Source: an uncultured Alphaproteobacteria bacterium (GTDB taxonomy: Bacteria > Pseudomonadota > Alphaproteobacteria > RF32 > CAG-239). Taken from it: a stretch of DNA of 40,641 bases. Of the stretch, positions 32,470 through 40,641 are shown one piece after another (positions within the stretch are counted from its first letter, which is position 1; each line of letters begins with the position of its first letter). The stretch covers positions 65,683 to 106,323 of the forward strand of contig CALXTP010000020.1 in the NCBI GenBank assembly GCA_944391435.1, given 5' to 3'. A model generated the notes under the pieces. That model was not told the DNA's origin and did not search any database. It worked only from the letters and a program-made list of their open reading frames with translations. A program made the translations under genes and the position numbers.

Positions 32470-35079
32470 TTAACCGACTTTTTTCTTTTCTGGAACAAAG
32501 TTTTGGTCAAGCATAATTTTTTCAACACATAATTCCGGTGCAACCTGGTAGGTGATGCCGTGGTCGGCAATGTTACCGACGTTGATTAAGTCCGAATCGT
32601 TTGCTTTGAGGCAGGAAATTGCCTGTTCGCCAGCTTTAACGACCAAACTTAATACCGGATTTTTTTGTGATTTGTTTTCAAAAGTTTTTTGTTTGCGGAT
32701 TTCTGCCGAGACAGCGGAAATGGTGTCATACAGCAGAGAATCTTTGGCAGAAACCGTTTGTAAGATATCCAGCGAAGTCCAGAGCTCTTTGTGAACAGAG
32801 ATGTCTGAAGGCTGTTTCCAGGGACGTGCCTGGTAAACTTCTTCGGTTATAAACGGGCAAAAAGGTGCGAACAGCTTTACAAATGTATCCAGCGAAAGCT
32901 TTAATGTGGCGATGGCTGAGGCATTATCTTCGGAGTAGGCACGTTTTTTGACGATTTCAACGTAATTATCGCAGAAGTCCCAAAAACGGGTTTCTATAGA
33001 ATCCAAAGCAAGGGCATAATCATAGTTTTCAAAACTGCGGCGAGCTGAATTTACCGTATCTGCCAGTTTTTTGAGCCAGGATTTGTCCAGTGCCGCGGAT
33101 ATGTTTTGAGCGTAGTCTGCCGAAGCGGAATTGCCGACAATCATAAAGACGAATTTGCTGGCATTGTATATTTTGACGATGAGCTTGCGTCCCTGCTGCA
33201 TCATTTTTTCGTCAAAAGCAGTATCTACACCCAGTTTTGCTTTAGCAGCCCAATAACGGACGGCATCGGCAGAATGGGCTTCTATCAAATTCATCGGAGT
33301 AACAACGTTTCCTTTGGATTTGCTCATTTTTTTGCGATCCGGGTCAAGGATAAATCCGCTGATAAGCGTTTTATGCCAAGGAATAGTGTTTTCGTGCATC
33401 AGGCTTTTGGCTATGGTATAAAAAGCCCAGGTACGGATGATATCGTGCGCCTGCGGGCGGATATCAAACGGCAGGGAAAGGTTGGAACCTTTGGGCGCCA
33501 TGGCCATGGCAATTTGCGGTGTCAATGATGATGTTGCCCATGTATCCATAACATCCGGGTCGCCGACGAATCCGTTTGGCTGGTTGCGCTGTGCTTCGGT
33601 GTAACCGTTCGGCGCATCGGCCATCGGATCTATCGGCAGGCGGTCTTTGGACGGCAAAATAACTTGCGAGTAATCAATATTGCCGTTGGCATCAACTTTA
33701 TACCAGACAGGGAAGGGGACGCCGAAATAGCGCTGGCGGCTGATACACCAATCTTGGTTAAGACCTTCGGTCCATGTTTCGTAGCGGTGTTGCATATAGG
33801 ACGGCAGCCATTTAATCTTACGTCCGGCGGAAAGCATTTCATCTTTCATATCCATCAATTTTACAAACCATTGGCGGGATGAAACAAATTCCAACGGCAA
33901 ATTGCCTTTTTCATAAAATTTTACCGGGTGGACAATTTTTTTCGGCTCGCCGATTAAAAAGCCTTGTTCTTTTAGCATTTCTGCTACTTTCTTTTTGGCG
34001 ATGTGGGCAGGCAGGCCGATAATCTGGTTGAAGTTCTTTTGCGCTTCTTCTTTGTTAAGCGTGTTGAAGACGCCTTCGCCGTAGGTAATGTTCATAATTT
34101 TGCCGTCTAAACCGATAATTTGCTTAATCGGCAGGCCGGATTTTTTCCACCAGGTAACGTCGGCGGCGTCACCAAAGGTGCAGACCATCATTATGCCTGT
34201 TCCTTTGTCTTTTTCGGCGTGTTCGGAGGGAACAATCGGTACCGGAATATCAAAAAGCGGAACGATGGCGGTTTTGCCGAATAAGTGTTTGTAACGTTCG
34301 TCATCCGGGTGGGCAACAATAGCCAGGCAGGATGCAAGCAATTCCGGACGCGTGGTGGCGATAATAAATGTTTCATTGCTGTCTTTGACACTGAAACGGA
34401 TGTCGTGGAAAAAGCCTTCCATTTCTTTATCTTCCACTTCTGCTTGGGAAACGGCGGATTTGAATGTTACATCCCACATAATCGGCGCTTCTACGGCGAC
34501 AACTTTGCCTTTTTGGTATAAATCAAGGAATGAGGCCTGGGAAATTTTTATGGAGGTCGGGCTGATGGTGGAATAGGTTAAATTCCAGTCGTAGGAGTGG
34601 CCGATACGGCGGAAAACGTTTTCAAATATTTTTTCATCTTCGGCGATTAACGTTTCACAGGCTTCAATAAAGTTTTTACGAGAGATTTCTCTGCGCTCGT
34701 TTTTGTCGTTATCAATATGAACCGGTTTGAAAGTCTGGTCATAGGGGATTTTGGGGTTGCATGCGATGTTGTAATAATTTTGGACGCGGCGTTCCGTCGG
34801 CAAGCCGTTATCATCCCAGCCGATAGGGTAAAAGACAGATTTGCCCTGCATACGCTGATATCTGGCGATAATATCCGTCTGCGTATAGCTGAAGATATGC
34901 CCGATATGCAGCGAACCCGAGGCGGTTGGCGGCGGCGTATCTATGACAAAGCTGTTATCACGGCTTTGGGTGGCGTCGTATTTATAAATTTCATTAGCGC
35001 TCCAGTAAGCGTCGCAGCGTTTTTCTATTTCTTCGGCATTGAATTGCTTGTCCAGGCCGGGTTCTTCTTTATAAGACAT
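32470..35079 (-). CDS. valS: Valyl-tRNA synthetase, archaeal-like type
   Basis: ValRS is the class I synthetase charging tRNA-Val. The start at 35079 (MSYKEEPGLDKQFN, 869 residues) fits the family; an ATG at 35106 would add nine residues. It has the HIGH motif at 58-61 in PPPTASGSLHIGHIFSYTQTD and KMSKS at 584-588. The CP1 editing domain (FIIATTRPELLASCLAIVAHPDD) and the C-terminal anticodon-binding helical domain are present. VFYPIGWDDNGLPTERRVQNYYNI, in place of the usual bacterial PPPNVTGSLHMGHA/GTDHAGIATQ blocks, and the absence of a long C-terminal coiled coil place it with the archaeal-like ValRS type, also known from Rickettsia and Actinobacteria. Confidence 0.95.
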   Translation of the reverse strand: MSYKEEPGLDKQFNAEEIEKRCDAYWSANEIYKYDATQSRDNSFVIDTPPPTASGSLHIGHIFSYTQTDIIARYQRMQGKSVFYPIGWDDNGLPTERRVQNYYNIACNPKIPYDQTFKPVHIDNDKNERREISRKNFIEACETLIAEDEKIFENVFRRIGHSYDWNLTYSTISPTSIKISQASFLDLYQKGKVVAVEAPIMWDVTFKSAVSQAEVEDKEMEGFFHDIRFSVKDSNETFIIATTRPELLASCLAIVAHPDDERYKHLFGKTAIVPLFDIPVPIVPSEHAEKDKGTGIMMVCTFGDAADVTWWKKSGLPIKQIIGLDGKIMNITYGEGVFNTLNKEEAQKNFNQIIGLPAHIAKKKVAEMLKEQGFLIGEPKKIVHPVKFYEKGNLPLEFVSSRQWFVKLMDMKDEMLSAGRKIKWLPSYMQHRYETWTEGLNQDWCISRQRYFGVPFPVWYKVDANGNIDYSQVILPSKDRLPIDPMADAPNGYTEAQRNQPNGFVGDPDVMDTWATSSLTPQIAMAMAPKGSNLSLPFDIRPQAHDIIRTWAFYTIAKSLMHENTIPWHKTLISGFILDPDRKKMSKSKGNVVTPMNLIEAHSADAVRYWAAKAKLGVDTAFDEKMMQQGRKLIVKIYNASKFVFMIVGNSASADYAQNISAALDKSWLKKLADTVNSARRSFENYDYALALDSIETRFWDFCDNYVEIVKKRAYSEDNASAIATLKLSLDTFVKLFAPFCPFITEEVYQARPWKQPSDISVHKELWTSLDILQTVSAKDSLLYDTISAVSAEIRKQKTFENKSQKNPVLSLVVKAGEQAISCLKANDSDLINVGNIADHGITYQVAPELCVEKIMLDQNFVPEKKKVG

Positions 35080-35332
35080 CTTTTCTTTTACTCCATAAAA
35101 AATCATACCGGGTAACAGTTTAACAAAGCCCGGTTTAAAAGTAAAGAGGATAAAATGCGTATTAGCGGTGTGGCGAAGTGTTTATGGGAGATGTTTTTAC
35201 CGGTATGGGCTGGGGCGTGTGGCGAATCGGGAAAAATGATGCCGAGGTTAGCGAATCGGTTGATTTTAAAGTCTATTTGTTTAAAAAAACGAGTCAAAAA
35301 AGACCGATTTTGACGGAATCCACAAAAAAGTA

Positions 35333-35361
35333 TTGAAAACAAGGAGAAAAAATGTTATAGT
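35333..35361 (+). promoter_or_regulatory. Promoter in leader copy A
   Basis: TTGAAA (35333-35338) and TATAGT (35356-35361) are separated by 17 bp. The predicted transcript has a 5' leader of about 130 nt. Confidence 0.65.
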
Positions 35362-35410
35362 AAGGGTGTGAGAAAATTATTAGGCAGTTTGAAATTATTT
35401 TGAGTATATT

Positions 35411-35500
35411 ATGAATGTGATCCTTTATGGAGTTTGTTCCGGTACACTCAGGGTTTTTCAAGCTGTTATTGTAAAATATTTTAAAAAAATTTTTTTATGA
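35411..35500 (+). other. Upstream leader frame overlapping the outer-membrane gene start (ATGA)
   Basis: A 29-codon frame starts at ATG 35411 (MNVILYGVCSGTLRVF...) and ends at a TGA that overlaps the ATG of the next gene (ATGA at 35497). The main gene has no Shine-Dalgarno sequence, only A/T upstream, so termination of this frame could re-initiate translation. In copy B the A/T tract is one base shorter and the frame does not stop there. Real translation is unproven. Confidence 0.3.
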
Positions 35501-36363
35501 AACAATTGAAAAAAGTAGCCAAGACTATTGCTATATGCGTGGTTTTGGTTTTCTGTGCTTCTAACGTTTGTGCGCAGAAGAGTGTTAAAGAATCCTTAAA
35601 ATGGTCGTCAGGCCAGATTAAGGAGTATCTTGCAGCCAACCCAAAAGACACCTGTCTTTATGATTTGAAAGAGATAGGAAGGGCAACTGGCGGTCAGGTC
35701 GTTGAACGTAGCCGTGTGGCTATGTTTAATGGTCAGGCCAAGCTTTTTAGGGACACGATATTTGTTCCTATAAAACAGTTAAAGGATATGACTCAGGAAG
35801 AGTTCCGGGCTGTCCGTAACGGCGAACTTGTCGCGACTAATGCCGACAGGCAGACGGTGGATGGCAAGAAGATACGGAAAGTTACCATATCAGCTTCTGC
35901 CGGTGCAACTTTCGGCAAAGACGGAGTTGCTCCGATGACAGAAGTCAATCTCGGGTATGAAACTCGGAATTGGCTGGTTGGCGGTGGTGTTGGTTGGACT
36001 CAAGCCTGGTACCCCGACAACGCTGAGTTTGCCAACAGCAGATATTCAATGCCATATGTCCAAATCAATGCTGGGTATAAGGTGTGGAAATCTGTTGACC
36101 ACCGTAGTTATATTGCGGTGGGGGCAAAAGGCCTTCTTGGTAATCTTCAGACTGATTCCAAAGATACAGATCTTTGGGGTGAAAGCTGGGGGTTTGGCGG
36201 CGGCCTAACCTTAGAGGGCATGTGGGGCGTTGGCACGAGAGGCTGGCGTCTCGGCTTCAATGCCGCAGTTCTTTTGATGCCGTATAATGAAAACTATGCG
36301 CATCAGGGAATTACCGGTGATATCAGGGGTTCTCTGATGTTTAAGGTCGGCAAAGCCTTCTAG
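35497..36363 (+). CDS. Outer-membrane beta-barrel protein A with duplicated signal peptide
   Basis: The 288-residue protein has a signal peptide ending VLVFCASNVCA with cleavage before QKSV. Its first 30 codons are identical in DNA to those of the next gene. The mature part has an N-terminal region (about 31-125, containing DLKEIGRATGGQVVERS) and then a barrel-like region of strands rich in Gly and aromatics: VTISASAGATFG, MTEVNLGYETRNWLVGGGVGWTQAW, PYVQINAGYKVW, SYIAVGAKGLLG, SWGFGGGLTLEGMWG, WRLGFNAAVLLMPY. It ends IRGSLMFKVGKAF, with a terminal Phe as in BAM substrates. There is no Shine-Dalgarno. The G+C content looks higher than in neighbouring core genes. The function is unknown; a strong terminator follows. 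Confidence 0.82.
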   Translation: MKQLKKVAKTIAICVVLVFCASNVCAQKSVKESLKWSSGQIKEYLAANPKDTCLYDLKEIGRATGGQVVERSRVAMFNGQAKLFRDTIFVPIKQLKDMTQEEFRAVRNGELVATNADRQTVDGKKIRKVTISASAGATFGKDGVAPMTEVNLGYETRNWLVGGGVGWTQAWYPDNAEFANSRYSMPYVQINAGYKVWKSVDHRSYIAVGAKGLLGNLQTDSKDTDLWGESWGFGGGLTLEGMWGVGTRGWRLGFNAAVLLMPYNENYAHQGITGDIRGSLMFKVGKAF

Positions 36364-36364
36364 G

Positions 36365-36374
36365 AAGGATCACA
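36365..36374 (+). repeat. AAGGATCACA, downstream partner of TGTGATCCTT
   Basis: Directly after the stop of barrel gene A. It is the exact inverse of TGTGATCCTT in that gene's leader (35416-35425). The same pair flanks barrel gene B (36646-36655 and 37756-37765). Confidence 0.6.
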
Positions 36375-36379
36375 AAATA

Positions 36380-36428
36380 GAAACAGCAGACTTTGGGCAA
36401 ACCCAAAAGTTTGCTGTTTCTTTTTTTT
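36380..36428 (+). terminator. Strong terminator after barrel gene A
   Basis: A long stem (GAAACAGCA/TGCTGTTTC extended by about nine inner pairs with one bulge) is followed by eight T. Confidence 0.9.
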
Positions 36429-36817
36429 ATCGGTATGAGCCGGTGAGTGTGGCGAATCGGGAAAAACGATGCTGAGGTTAGCGAATCGGTTGATTTTAAA
36501 GTCTATTTGTTTAAAAAAATGAGTCAAAAAAGACCGATTTTGACGGAATCCACAAAAAAGTATTGAAAACAAGGAGAAAAAATGTTATAGTAAGGGTGTG
36601 AGAAAATTATTAGGCAGTTTGAAATTATTTTGGGTATATTATGAATGTGATCCTTTATGGGGTTTGTTCCGGTACACTCAGGGTTTTTCAAGCTGTTATT
36701 GTAAAATATTTAAAATTTTTTTTTTATGAAACAATTGAAAAAAGTAGCCAAGACTATTGCTATATGCGTGGTTTTGGTTTTCTGTGCTTCTAACGTTTGT
36801 GCGCAGAAGAGTGTTAA
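36427..36817 (+). repeat. Leader module, copy B
   Basis: This is the second copy of the block at 35197-35588, about 1229-1230 bp downstream. It carries the same promoter, leader and signal-peptide codons. It differs mainly in the A/T tract before the ATG: TTTAAAA followed by ten T, versus A7T7 in copy A. Confidence 0.95.
36563..36591 (+). promoter_or_regulatory. Promoter in leader copy B
   Basis: TTGAAA (36563-36568), 17 bp, TATAGT (36586-36591). Identical to the promoter in copy A. Confidence 0.65.
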
Positions 36818-37757
36818 TCTTTCGGCTGATGCTCAAGAAGCGGTGAACCGTTTTTTTGGGGTTGAAGCTGCCAAAGTTTACAAGATTGAAACTTCAGATC
36901 TTCAAGAGATTGGAAAGTTTTTGTTGAGCAATTCCGGAACGGTTTGCTTGACAGGGGAGACTTCTTGGGAAGAAGGAGATAGCCTTTTTGTTCGGAGAAC
37001 CTTTATCGGTTTGACGGATAAAGAGGCCAGAAAGCTTAGCCGCTTTATTTTGACGGAGAAGGAACTTTCTTCTAAAGAGATGACTCGGCGTCAAGAGATT
37101 GATTCTAAAATTGTTGATTTGTCAGACGAATCAACGGTTAAGGAAGAGATTATTGCTGGCGGTGAAGCGCGCCTCGGAAACGTTGCATTTCCGGTTTATG
37201 AAGATGGAAGTGTAGACGCTTCTCAACCCATTGAACTGGGTGCCAAAAATATCTATTACTGGCAAGTTGCGCCGGTGGTGGGTATAAATTATGACTTTGA
37301 CGGTCAGTGGACACCATATTTTGGTGCAGAACTGGCACGTTGGGGACGTCACTTCGGCGGATATATCCAGGGTAAGCTCGGTTGGGCTTATTATCCTGAA
37401 ACCGCTGAAAAGCCGGGAAAGAGCTACTTGAGCGGAGGAGCTCAGATTGGTTTGGGTACTCGTCTATGGGCTAACGATTCAGAGGATAAAAACCTCTGGA
37501 TTGGCGCTTTTGCTGATGCTATGTGGTATAGTACGGATACAAAGCGCCCGGAAAGTGATGAATATCGCTGGGCGACCCAGGACGGGTTGAGTATCGGCCC
37601 TGGGGCATTCATTAAATGGCGTATGCCATTTTTTGAATTGTCACTTAACTATTCGTACACCAAATTACTTGGGTACGAGATGGCAGAGTGGCACCACAAT
37701 GTGGGGCTCTCAGTAGCCGTTCCTTTCTCTATTTGGCGCAACAGTACTGCCAAATAA
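36726..37757 (+). CDS. Outer-membrane beta-barrel protein B with duplicated signal peptide
   Basis: This 343-residue protein shares the signal peptide and residues to QKSV exactly with protein A, then diverges completely in DNA. The N-terminal half (about 31-165) is charged and probably periplasmic. It contains SDLQEIGKFLLSNSGTV, faintly like DLKEIGRATGGQV in protein A, which suggests an old common ancestor. The C-terminal part looks like a barrel: IYYWQVAPVVGINYDF, WTPYFGAELARWG, FGGYIQGKLGWAYY, YLSGGAQIGLGTRLWA, LWIGAFADAMWY, LSIGPGAFIKWRMPFFELSLNYSYTKLLGY, HHNVGLSVAVPFSIWRNSTAK. The last residues do not end in Phe. No Shine-Dalgarno; a stretch of ten T precedes the ATG. Function unknown. 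Confidence 0.82.
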   Translation: MKQLKKVAKTIAICVVLVFCASNVCAQKSVNLSADAQEAVNRFFGVEAAKVYKIETSDLQEIGKFLLSNSGTVCLTGETSWEEGDSLFVRRTFIGLTDKEARKLSRFILTEKELSSKEMTRRQEIDSKIVDLSDESTVKEEIIAGGEARLGNVAFPVYEDGSVDASQPIELGAKNIYYWQVAPVVGINYDFDGQWTPYFGAELARWGRHFGGYIQGKLGWAYYPETAEKPGKSYLSGGAQIGLGTRLWANDSEDKNLWIGAFADAMWYSTDTKRPESDEYRWATQDGLSIGPGAFIKWRMPFFELSLNYSYTKLLGYEMAEWHHNVGLSVAVPFSIWRNSTAK

Positions 37758-37772
37758 GGATCACAACGTAGG

Positions 37773-37820
37773 AAAGCAGAGGAATTGAGGGCAGCAGCTC
37801 TCTCTTTCTCTGCTTTTTTT
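37773..37820 (+). terminator. Terminator after barrel gene B
   Basis: AAAGCAGAG (37773-37781) pairs with CTCTGCTTT (37808-37816), and the run of seven T at 37814-37820 completes it. AAGGATCACA lies just upstream at 37756-37765. Confidence 0.8.
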
Positions 37821-37849
37821 GTGCTTAGAGAGATAGGGTAATAGGCGGA

Positions 37850-38044
37850 ATGTTGCGGATGGGCGTAAATATAACCAGCGAATCGCTTTTTTGTTGCTTT
37901 TGGGGTGGCGTTAACGCTTCTGTTAACCTATCCCGCAGAATATCTTTGTTTGGCGAGGCGCGCTACCAGTCTATTCCCATAGATGGAATGGGCGAGATAA
38001 AGTGGGGCGGCGTTTTTACCGGTGGCATTAAATTTTATTTTTAA
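37850..38044 (+). pseudogene. 3' remnant of a third outer-membrane barrel gene
   Basis: A 64-codon frame encodes NASVNLSRRISLFGEARYQSIPIDGMGEIKWGGVFTGGIKFYF and stops. This looks like the last two or three strands of a barrel, with a textbook C-terminal Phe (GGIKFYF). No signal peptide, ribosome site or promoter precedes it, and it is too short to be a barrel alone. I read it as the tail of a gene that lost its 5' part. It does not closely resemble the ends of proteins A or B. The gap to the next gene (38045-38138) holds nothing else I recognise. Confidence 0.55.
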
Positions 38045-38138
38045 TGTTGTAGGGCCGGTGATTTTACGGCTGGATTCTTCCTGCTGTTTTTTTATGCGGT
38101 GTTTTTTTGCTGAGGTTAAAGTAATTTTATCGGCGGGG

Positions 38139-38168
38139 TTGAAACCTCTTGTGGCGTAATTATATAAA
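38139..38168 (+). promoter_or_regulatory. Promoter of the small secreted protein gene
   Basis: TTGAAA (38139-38144) is followed by TATATA (38161-38166, 16-bp spacing) or TATAAA (38163-38168, 18-bp spacing). Confidence 0.5.
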
Positions 38169-38198
38169 AAACGTCGTTTAATTTTGGAGGAAAAACAG

Positions 38199-38522
38199 AT
38201 GAACAGGCTATTTATGGGGCTTTTGGCGGTGGCTGCTTTGGCTTTGATTGTCAGTCAGGCTACGGCCGGGGCAAACAACGCAGCGAATGCTGCGAATGAG
38301 GCTGATAATGACGGTGTGATGATTATTGAGACATATACGGCGTCTTCGGTGACTTTGCCTGCTGGTAACAATGGCAACAGCAGCGGAAACGGCAGTGCTG
38401 GCGATATGCAGCCTCTGCCGGGCGATCCGGGGGTGGAAGTTGCACCGGTTAATTCTGGGGCACAACAGCCGGCCGTGGTGGAAGAAGATGTGTTGGTGCA
38501 AGAAACTGAAGATGGCGAATAA
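38199..38522 (+). CDS. Small secreted acidic protein, 107 residues, unknown
   Basis: GGAGG lies 8 bp before the ATG at 38199; a TTG at 38184 is rejected because it overlaps that ribosome site. Residues 1-23 (MNRLFMGLLAVAALALIVSQATA) are a clear signal peptide, with cleavage before GANN. The mature part of about 84 residues is low-complexity: Ala/Asn-rich first, then Gly/Ser/Asn (GNNGNSSGNGSAGD), Pro and finally acidic (VVEEDVLVQETEDGE). No cysteine, no repeat domain, no lipobox. It probably stays unfolded in the periplasm or outside the cell. It has its own promoter and terminator. Function unknown. Confidence 0.75.
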   Translation: MNRLFMGLLAVAALALIVSQATAGANNAANAANEADNDGVMIIETYTASSVTLPAGNNGNSSGNGSAGDMQPLPGDPGVEVAPVNSGAQQPAVVEEDVLVQETEDGE

Positions 38523-38524
38523 TG

Positions 38525-38572
38525 TTTAAATACATTGTTTAAATACAGAGTAAAAAAATTTAAATACGCCGT
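38525..38572 (+). repeat. Cluster of three TTTAAATACNNNGT motifs
   Basis: TTTAAATACATTGT (38525-38538), TTTAAATACAGAGT (38538-38551) and TTTAAATACGCCGT (38559-38572) follow the stop of the secreted-protein gene almost in tandem. All have the same orientation as the four copies at 1025-4756. The last overlaps the terminator stem. Confidence 0.65.
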
Positions 38573-38603
38573 TCTTTTAAAAATAAAAAGGGCGGCGTTT
38601 TTT
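38566..38603 (+). terminator. Terminator of the small secreted protein gene
   Basis: ACGCCGTTCTTTT (38566-38578) pairs with AAAAGGGCGGCGT (38586-38598), including two G-U pairs, followed by a T-run. Confidence 0.82.
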
Positions 38604-38639
38604 ATGGTCGGCTGTCGTGTGGATATAAAACAGCGGATA

Positions 38640-38669
38640 TAAAAAATGCCCCGTTTTTATACGGGGCAT
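38640..38669 (-). terminator. Terminator of rpsA
   Basis: On the minus strand a 9-bp stem (ATGCCCCGT/ACGGGGCAT) with a 6-base loop is followed by a run of T (complement of the A-run at 38640-38646). Confidence 0.88.
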
Positions 38670-38689
38670 CGTTTTGAAAAAAGAGTGAA

Positions 38690-40375
38690 TTATTCTTCTT
38701 TCTTCTTCAAAGCTTCACCTAAAGCTTCACCCAAAGTTGAACCGGAAGAGTTAGCTGCGGAATATTCTTCCAGAGCTTTCTTTTCTTCTTCAATTTCATA
38801 AGCTTTTACAGAAACGCCGAGTTTTGCGTTTTTGCGGTCAACGGAGGTTAATTTTGCTTCCAAAATGTCACCTTCTTTGTAGCTCATCGGGTCATTGTTT
38901 TCTTTGGATAAATCAGCTTTTTTGATGGTGGCGGCAATGCCCTGAACCGTTACATGAACGCCTTTTTCATCTGCGCCGGTAACAACGGCTTTGACAATAT
39001 CGCCTTTCTTTAAGGACTCTAAAGTCATGGCAATGTTGTTTTCGGACATTTGCTTGATGCCTAAGCTGATGCGCTCTTTTTCTACATCAACATCAATGAT
39101 TTTGGCTTGGATGGTCTGCCCTTTGGTGTAGTCCTTAACGGCTTCTTCGCCGGACTTTTCCCAAGAAATATCGGACAGGTGAATCATCCCGTCAATTTCA
39201 TCAGAGAGGCCGATAAACAAACCGAATTCGGTGATGTTTTTAATCTTGCCTTCAATGACGGAGCCAAGCGGATGCTCTTCAATGTATGCAGCCCACGGAT
39301 TTGGCGTGCACTGCTTGATGCCCAGGCTGATACGGCGTTTTTCCGGATCAACTTCCAAAACCTTAACTTCAACTTCTTGTGAAGTAGAAACGATTTTTCC
39401 GGGGTGGACGTTTTTGCGTGTCCAGCTCATTTCAGAAACGTGGACGAGGCCTTCAATGCCGTCTTCAAGCTCAATGAATGCACCGTAATCGGTGATGTTG
39501 GTTACTTTTCCTTTGTAGATTTCGCCGACTTTGTATTTGTCAGCAACGGTCTGCCAAGGATCATTTTCCAACTGCTTCATGCCAAGGCTGATGCGTTGTG
39601 TGTCTTCGTTGAATTTGATAACCTGGACTTTAACCGTCTGGCCTAATGTTAAAACTTCTGCCGGATGGTTGATTCTCTTCCATGAAATGTCGGTTACATG
39701 CAGTAAACCGTCTACACCGCCCAAGTCAATGAATGCACCGTAATCTGTCAAATTCTTGACGATACCTTCCAGTACGGCGCCTTCTTTGATATTATCCATC
39801 AATTCTGCACGGGCAGAGGCTCTGGTTTCTTCAAGAACCACACGACGTGATACAACAATGTTGCCACGTATTTTATCCATCTTTAAAATCTGGAAAGGTT
39901 GGGAAATTCCCATTAAAGGCGTAATGTCTTTAATCGGGCGAATATCAATTTGTGAACCCGGCAAGAAGGCAATTGCACCGTTCAAATCAACGGTAAAGCC
40001 GCCTTTAACACGGCCGAAGATAATGCCGTTTACTCTTTCGTTGTTGTTCATCATCTTTTCAAGATCATGCCACACTTCTTCGCGACGTGCTTTTTCACGC
40101 GATAAGACAATGTTGCCGTCTTTGTCTTCGTATCTGTCAACCAAAACTTCTACGGTGTCGCCGACTTTTAATTCGTCATTTTTACCAAATTCACGAAGCG
40201 GAATGCGACCCTCAGATTTCAATCCGACATCAACTGTTGCATAATCATCCGTTAAACGAATGATGGTTCCTTTCATGACTGTGCCGACAATGCCTTTGCC
40301 GCCAAACTGTTCATTTAACAGTTCTTCAAAATTTTCAGTCATTTCCGGGATTTTTACTTCTGCAGTATTTGCCAT
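38690..40375 (-). CDS. rpsA: 30S ribosomal protein S1
   Basis: S1 binds mRNA at the small ribosomal subunit and helps translation start. The start at 40375 (MANTAEVKIPEMTENFEELL, 561 residues) matches the family; an in-frame ATG at 40456 would add 27 unrelated residues. Six S1 domains are seen in order: VGTVMKGTIIRLTDDYATVDVGLKSEG, NGIIFGRVKGGFTVDL, GIVKNLTDYGAFIDLGGVDGLLHVTDISW, GKVTNITDYGAFIELEDGIEGLVHVSEMSW, GKIKNITEFGLFIGLSDEIDGMIHLSDISW, and a degenerate sixth (VVTGADEKGVHVTVQGIAATIKK). The C-terminus is Lys/Glu-rich. No Shine-Dalgarno lies before the start, as is common for rpsA. Confidence 0.97.
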   Translation of the reverse strand: MANTAEVKIPEMTENFEELLNEQFGGKGIVGTVMKGTIIRLTDDYATVDVGLKSEGRIPLREFGKNDELKVGDTVEVLVDRYEDKDGNIVLSREKARREEVWHDLEKMMNNNERVNGIIFGRVKGGFTVDLNGAIAFLPGSQIDIRPIKDITPLMGISQPFQILKMDKIRGNIVVSRRVVLEETRASARAELMDNIKEGAVLEGIVKNLTDYGAFIDLGGVDGLLHVTDISWKRINHPAEVLTLGQTVKVQVIKFNEDTQRISLGMKQLENDPWQTVADKYKVGEIYKGKVTNITDYGAFIELEDGIEGLVHVSEMSWTRKNVHPGKIVSTSQEVEVKVLEVDPEKRRISLGIKQCTPNPWAAYIEEHPLGSVIEGKIKNITEFGLFIGLSDEIDGMIHLSDISWEKSGEEAVKDYTKGQTIQAKIIDVDVEKERISLGIKQMSENNIAMTLESLKKGDIVKAVVTGADEKGVHVTVQGIAATIKKADLSKENNDPMSYKEGDILEAKLTSVDRKNAKLGVSVKAYEIEEEKKALEEYSAANSSGSTLGEALGEALKKKEE

Positions 40376-40471
40376 TATATTATTTTTCAAAAATGCCAGA
40401 CCCTCAACGGAGGCGGACTTGTGCATATACAATAACCTTTTTTCATACTGCACCATATGAAAACCGCTGTC

Positions 40472-40500
40472 TTATTAGCTTTAAATATCCGAAAAGTCAA
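40472..40500 (-). promoter_or_regulatory. Promoter of rpsA
   Basis: On the minus strand TTGACT (40500-40495), 17 bp, TAATAA (40477-40472). The leader before rpsA would be about 90 nt. Confidence 0.65.
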
Positions 40501-40539
40501 GAAAAAATTCAACAGGTAAGGTATGGAGACGAAATTTTG

Positions 40540-40641
40540 CTAAACTTTGTACGGGAGTATTTTATAGATGTAGTCGCTGAGGCGATTGGGCAAAATGCTT
40601 CCAAGCCAGACGGCGAGCCGCATCGGCCAAGGAAAGGCTAT
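40540..40641 (-). CDS. C-terminal end of a probable short-chain dehydrogenase, partial
   Basis: The minus-strand frame runs from the window edge to a TAG at 40540-40542 and gives 33 residues: IAFPWPMRLAVWLGSILPNRLSD and on to ILPYKV. The FPWP...LP..LSD.. pattern resembles the C-terminus of short-chain dehydrogenase/reductase family members. With only the last 33 residues and none of the catalytic motifs visible, the assignment is tentative. It lies upstream of rpsA on the same strand, but rpsA has its own promoter. A frame on the other strand is also open over this stretch but has no start or ribosome site. Confidence 0.4.
   Translation of the reverse strand: MAFPWPMRLAVWLGSILPNRLSDYIYKILPYKV

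Follow-up and report, generated by a model that had tools for sequence, protein, structure and literature searches.

Concerted evolution of a promoter and signal-peptide leader shared by two predicted outer-membrane barrel genes in an uncultured alphaproteobacterial genus

Two adjacent genes for predicted outer-membrane proteins, referred to here as A and B, begin with nearly the same promoter, 5' untranslated region (UTR) and signal peptide in an uncultured alphaproteobacterium and then continue into different mature coding regions. Comparison among species of the same genus demonstrates that this leader undergoes concerted evolution, that the shared sequence ends sharply near the predicted signal-peptidase site, that pieces of the signal peptide are exchanged in mosaic fashion between A and B in close species, and that the leader is homogenized even where the two genes are unlinked. 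The most probable explanation, held at roughly 85%, is that ectopic gene conversion has recurrently copied the leader between old paralogs whose bodies keep diverging, a reading that is based on sequence comparison and in which we infer the conversion events from the differences among species.

The duplicated leader and the genes that follow it

The window, which denotes the whole analyzed stretch of 40,641 nucleotides, contains two copies of the leader module on its forward strand. Copy 1 (35194..35588) comprises the promoter, the 5' UTR, the signal-peptide codons and three further codons of gene A, and is 95-97% identical to copy 2 (36424..36817), which belongs to gene B. A repeat search of the window recovered the module as two pairs of direct repeats, namely 35194-35493/36424-36723, with 95% identity over 300 nt at a spacing of ~1230, and 35480-35588/36709-36817, with 97% identity over 109 nt. 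Over 35217-35586 the copies differ by a handful of scattered substitutions and one 1-nt indel. The near-identical block of ~390 bp, with promoter, 5' leader and 30 codons, that had been described in the original prediction is borne out by these repeats, whose length and identity are not attributable to chance. The signal-peptide stretches of A (35497..35577, ending VCA-Q) and B (36726..36806) are identical at all 81 of 81 nt, the two open reading frames have 30 N-terminal residues in common (MKQLKKVAKTIAICVVLVFCASNVCAQKSV), and the identity ends 3-4 codons past the predicted A-Q signal-peptidase site. This site is invariant in the alignments of both A and B, and no Cys follows it, as a lipoprotein leader would have at position +1. 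In the host genome (G000; 1.53 Mb in 88 contigs, 92% complete), the leader block occurs in two copies only. A shufflon or silent-cassette antigenic-variation locus was considered and rejected, given the two copies and the finding of no inverted-repeat pairs of ≥25 bases at 33000-40641.

Gene A (35497..36363, forward strand) encodes a 288-aa protein composed of an N-terminal domain and an eight-stranded barrel (residues 128-287), while gene B (36726..37757, forward strand) encodes a 343-aa protein with an N-terminal region and a similar barrel at about residues 173-342. The AlphaFold model of A (pLDDT 72.7) has eight strands, with Legionella porin III, NspA and OmpA as its best PDB matches at Z about 16, and the model of B, in which the barrel is mostly at pLDDT 70-90 and the remainder is low and poorly modeled, matches Legionella porin III, OmpW and NspA, also at Z about 16. 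Both proteins are therefore predicted, at Z 14-16, to be eight-stranded outer-membrane beta-barrels of the OmpA/NspA/OmpW fold. No Pfam match exceeded its cut-off; OMP_b-brl (PF13505) reached 15.9 bits for A against a gathering cut-off of 28.7 and was not listed for B.

The downstream bodies had been described beforehand as completely different, a description that holds for the DNA and fails for the mature proteins. Compared without their signal peptides, A and B are matched by hhalign with a probability of 97.6% (E 4.6e-12), and the mature N-termini of their relatives align by BLASTP with up to 42% identity over 81 aa (E 2e-11), which indicates that the two bodies are distant paralogs of each other. 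At their 3' ends, the genes carry different terminator hairpins, each followed by a T-run: the A-type (36380..36430, forward strand) is orthologous from one A gene of the genus to the next and does not occur in B, and the B-type (37775..37822, forward strand) is B-specific and conserved across species, so that homogenization is confined to the 5' end.

Histories of leaders and bodies across the genus

The comparison set consisted of 18 genomes of the genus, one per species, mostly or all of them metagenome-assembled genomes (MAGs). A tandem A-B pair with two leaders is present in at least eight of these species, in the order (valS)-A-B-(third barrel gene)-small gene-rpsA, and the position beside rpsA is conserved in all but one genome (G012). 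The A orthologs of G000 and G014 are 61% identical, as are the B orthologs, and within the cluster G003/G006/G008/G016 the orthologs of both genes are 80-90% identical. Outside the genus, a search of 152 genomes yielded two weak profile matches to the family, in one other genus only. The leader was not found ahead of any third gene in the 18 species; signal-peptide DNA of two species types gave strong matches at A and B genes only, and no convincing candidate for a donor signal peptide was detected elsewhere in the genome. As a separate observation, the gene at 184-1200 of L046 (G017) and that at 8742-9758 of L047 (G002) each combine an A-like barrel with a B-like N-terminal stretch ahead of it, and this natural A/B chimera is the sole body chimera seen in the genus.

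The histories of leader and body are clearly separated in the quartet of A and B from G000 and G014. Informative sites grouping by genome, by gene and crosswise, respectively, number 44:0:1 in the UTR and 25:0:0 in the signal peptide, while for the mature gene the counts are 11:50:5 and 9:125:6. In the leader tree, A and B are paired by genome in G000 (100/99), G014 (88/80) and G012 (100/100), and forcing the A leaders of G000 and G014 together is rejected (AU p ~1e-83). In the mature-protein tree, all A sequences are set apart from all B sequences at 100/99 by a single change, and genome-wise pairs are rejected. The same boundary can be read directly in G015, where the signal peptides of A and B are identical at 75/75 nt and the next ~60 nt are 39% identical. 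Against such grouping by genome, G001 has similar promoters at A and B but distinct signal peptides.

These relationships bear on the possibility that the leader was duplicated once, recently, ahead of an existing gene. The high identity of both copies in the host genome fits such an event, but the two-leader tandem is found in at least eight species, and leader identity within a genome exceeds that between species across them, a pattern that a single duplication cannot explain; this account is accordingly regarded as extremely improbable. The original prediction had proposed a search for further copies, with a simple old duplication as the outcome that would speak against it. The search returned two copies per genome, at A and B only, and the duplication does appear old, but the history of the leader is not simple.

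In the close cluster (G003, G006, G008, G011 and G016), the leader tree has no resolution and does not pair the leaders by genome, which likewise counts against conversion. Here, the signal peptides form an A/B patchwork, in which stretches of 24-27 bases that are identical in one pair of species adjoin stretches differing by about half, and each of two broad signal-peptide types is found at A as well as at B. The B genes of G003 and G008, for example, are identical at codons 10-18 and 54% identical at codons 19-26, while those of G003 and G016 are 74% identical at codons 10-18 and 100% identical at codons 19-26. Between the A genes of G003 and G016, the signal peptide is 41% identical at the nucleotide level, the flanking UTR about 88%, and the body 84% at the amino acid level; divergence of the signal peptide between species that exceeds that of both UTR and body is expected if pieces are exchanged.

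The unlinked pair in G012 adds an independent configuration. There, contig C16 (192 kb) carries A, and B is found on C11 (109 kb) at a distance of more than 10 kb from the contig end; the leaders are nevertheless 95.4% identical over 328 bp and the signal peptides 98.6%, compared with 33% at the mature start, which means that unequal crossing-over within a tandem is not required. Leaders that group by genome beside bodies that group by gene, mosaic signal peptides, and this unlinked pair with a common leader lend good support to the suggestion, already made in the original prediction, of gene conversion restricted to the leader. The G012 contigs also contain, downstream of both genes, a 67-bp stretch that is 84% alike (L196 on C16, L188 on C11), probably a terminator region.

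Since repeated sequence in MAGs may be mis-assembled in places, collapsed or mis-joined repeats might be suspected of creating the identity. Several MAG contigs do break inside the leader, namely C1/C7 of G005, C48/C13 of G017 and C4/C55 of G009 (L044/L048, L049/L046 and L042/L151, respectively); in G005 and G017 the two broken ends lie within the leader and overlap each other, and in G002, G009, G013 and G015 contigs terminate inside the leader or at its edge. Contig ends of this kind are expected from near-identical repeats, and repeats of the leader type can be recognized as a cause of fragmentation of MAG assemblies at outer-membrane loci. Against an artifact, the two copies of a genome are told apart by differences scattered along them, MAGs assembled independently in different projects give the same picture, and the G012 copies lie inside separate long contigs, so that this explanation has very little probability.

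In the proposed mechanism of recurrent conversion, A and B would represent an old pair of paralogous eight-stranded-barrel outer-membrane genes, whose 5' module, consisting of the upstream box, promoter, structured 5' UTR and signal peptide, would be repeatedly homogenized within each genome. The route would be ectopic homologous recombination, most simply gene conversion of the RecA type between the copies, the enzyme pathway being presumed. The mature halves and terminators would evolve as separate orthologous lineages, and any tract of conversion that extends into the mature part would probably be eliminated by selection or halted by sequence divergence. As a consequence, A and B may keep the same promoter strength, the same control of mRNA through the 5' hairpin, and the same export signal, and would be co-expressed while their surface parts specialize.

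Upstream elements and the 5'-UTR hairpin

Each leader copy starts with a genus-conserved upstream box, TTTAAAGTCTATTTGTTTAAAAAA (35265..35288 and 36495..36518, forward strand), which is possibly a regulator site. In eight congeneric genomes the box is found at two places per genome, exactly or with at most one mismatch, at the A and B leaders; elsewhere in the 18 genomes, it matches once each in G005 and G009, where a contig breaks off, and the only other matches are weak ones with three mismatches. Among GTDB contigs, the pattern matched the same genus and isolated places in scattered unrelated taxa, the latter being taken as chance matches to an AT-rich 20-base pattern. An inverted repeat of the form GTCAAAA...TTTTGAC (GAGTCAAA...TTTGACNGAAT) lies upstream of the -35 box at 35290-35325 and 36520-36555, is recognizable in several congeners, and is a possible operator. 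The predicted sigma-70-type promoter (TTGAAA-17-TATAGT) is located at 35333..35361 in copy 1, where it is conserved in the alignment of congeners, and at 36563..36591 in copy 2.

From the predicted promoter, the 5' UTR would extend for ~135 nt, and it is predicted to fold into one long hairpin at 35383..35467 (z -2.8) and 36613..36697 (z -3.1). Across species, z ranges from -2.8 to -6.6 in most of the sequences tested and is -1.6 in G001B. The consensus fold, obtained from a sequence-based alignment, comprises 31 pairs, with 96.3% of cells paired and five pairs with two-sided changes, compared with 41-53% paired in slid controls. In a test with 500 shuffles, none attained the observed paired percentage or covariation score, whereas 35 attained the observed number of covarying pairs, which provides good, not overwhelming, sequence-based support for a conserved hairpin. 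A covariance model built from 5' UTR sequences other than those of G012 matched exactly the A and B leaders of eight species and nothing else in the 18 genomes at an E value of 0.05; its matches include both G012 leaders (E 9e-6 and 5e-5). No Rfam match was obtained for the leader or its hairpin. A leader peptide within the UTR, encoded by a reading frame ending in ATGA at the start of A, was rejected, since neither copy B nor G014 preserves it.

Escherichia coli ompA, likewise a gene for an eight-stranded outer-membrane barrel, also has a structured 5' UTR, in which the stem-loop stabilizes the mRNA and the mRNA is additionally a target of MicA with Hfq (PMC2777011). By analogy, the hairpin of A and B may act in mRNA stability or regulation; it differs from that of ompA in being a single long stem and has no Rfam match. 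This RNA element of outer-membrane genes constitutes a testable candidate.

The conserved fold raises the question of how far selection, rather than copying, maintains the identity. If a single small RNA or regulator served both mRNAs, selection for matched leaders could be the main force, with conversion merely supplying the copies, an account that overlaps with the preferred one. The compensatory changes in a hairpin found at A and B only are consistent with this view, but synonymous sites are identical as well (81/81 nt in G000 and 75/75 nt in G015), which copying explains more simply, and no regulator or small RNA has been identified; we consider a leading role for selection possible but rather unlikely. 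A further, tentative and somewhat doubtful idea is that the leader forms a co-evolving control cassette, in which a hairpin absent from Rfam and used by the A/B pair only is kept matched together with a fast-turnover signal peptide, a common regulator sets the balance of the two proteins, and selection and conversion jointly keep the copies identical even when unlinked.

Relation to known systems and neighboring genes

The upstream homology box lipoprotein genes (erp; ospE/ospF/elp) of Borrelia burgdorferi combine a common promoter/operator and leader peptide with divergent bodies and are co-expressed (PMC10016077; PMC6719511). They are described as numerous, carried on cp32 prophage plasmids, and having bodies of many independent origins (PMC10016077). 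A and B resemble them in that divergent bodies follow a common promoter and leader, but they are two genes among chromosomal housekeeping neighbors, their signals are signal-peptidase-I-like with no Cys after the cleavage site, their bodies are paralogous barrels of two types instead of many independent origins, and their common leader turns over species by species. A fixed expression and export cassette with swappable surface-protein bodies, as in the erp loci, would fit the different histories of leader and body, the chimeric genes of G002 and G017, and the G012 leader and B gene located away from A. Each genome, however, has two leader copies and two body types, which are orthologous, stand in a mostly fixed order across the genus, and are themselves homologous. 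Such a cassette with swapped bodies, as had been envisaged in the original prediction, is therefore improbable, the leader preceding only A and B in 18 congeneric genomes with synteny kept except in G012. The associated idea of a system for diversifying surface proteins fares no better, as the bodies stay put, with the G002/G017 chimera as a partial exception.

A second parallel is offered by the outer-membrane paralogs babA/babB and homA/homB of Helicobacter pylori, in which one segment is homogenized within strains and the other keeps gene identity, and for which RecA-dependent intragenomic conversion has been proposed (PMC3960876). In A and B, likewise, the leader segments of the two genes in one genome resemble each other more than orthologs do, and the adjacent mature segment tracks gene orthology, which points to the same process of segmental homogenization. 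In the Helicobacter genes, the 3' segment is homogenized and the 5' segment is divergent, whereas in A and B the situation is reversed, homogenization affecting the regulatory and export sequence and the mature protein diverging; moreover, no expression switching has been seen for A and B in the genome comparison. The locus is best read as a variant of known concerted evolution rather than a diversification system. It provides a genus-wide natural experiment, including an unlinked pair, in which the regulatory and export sequences of paralogs are homogenized while the exported proteins diverge, and it warns that the ancestry of a signal peptide or promoter cannot safely be assumed to be that of the gene body.

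Two further observations concern the genes downstream of B. In G014, G011, G016, G003, G006 and G009, B and the small gene are separated by an intact third gene for a barrel protein, 'C' (~202 aa), which was not seen in G008; in the window, only a remnant is left at 37907-38041, which corresponds to the last 45 residues with 76% identity to G014. The small gene at 38199-38522 encodes an acidic, secreted-looking protein without a Pfam match, beginning MNRLFMGLLAVAALALIVSQA and ending VLVQETEDGE, which is kept beside rpsA in nearly all congeners in which the locus was read.
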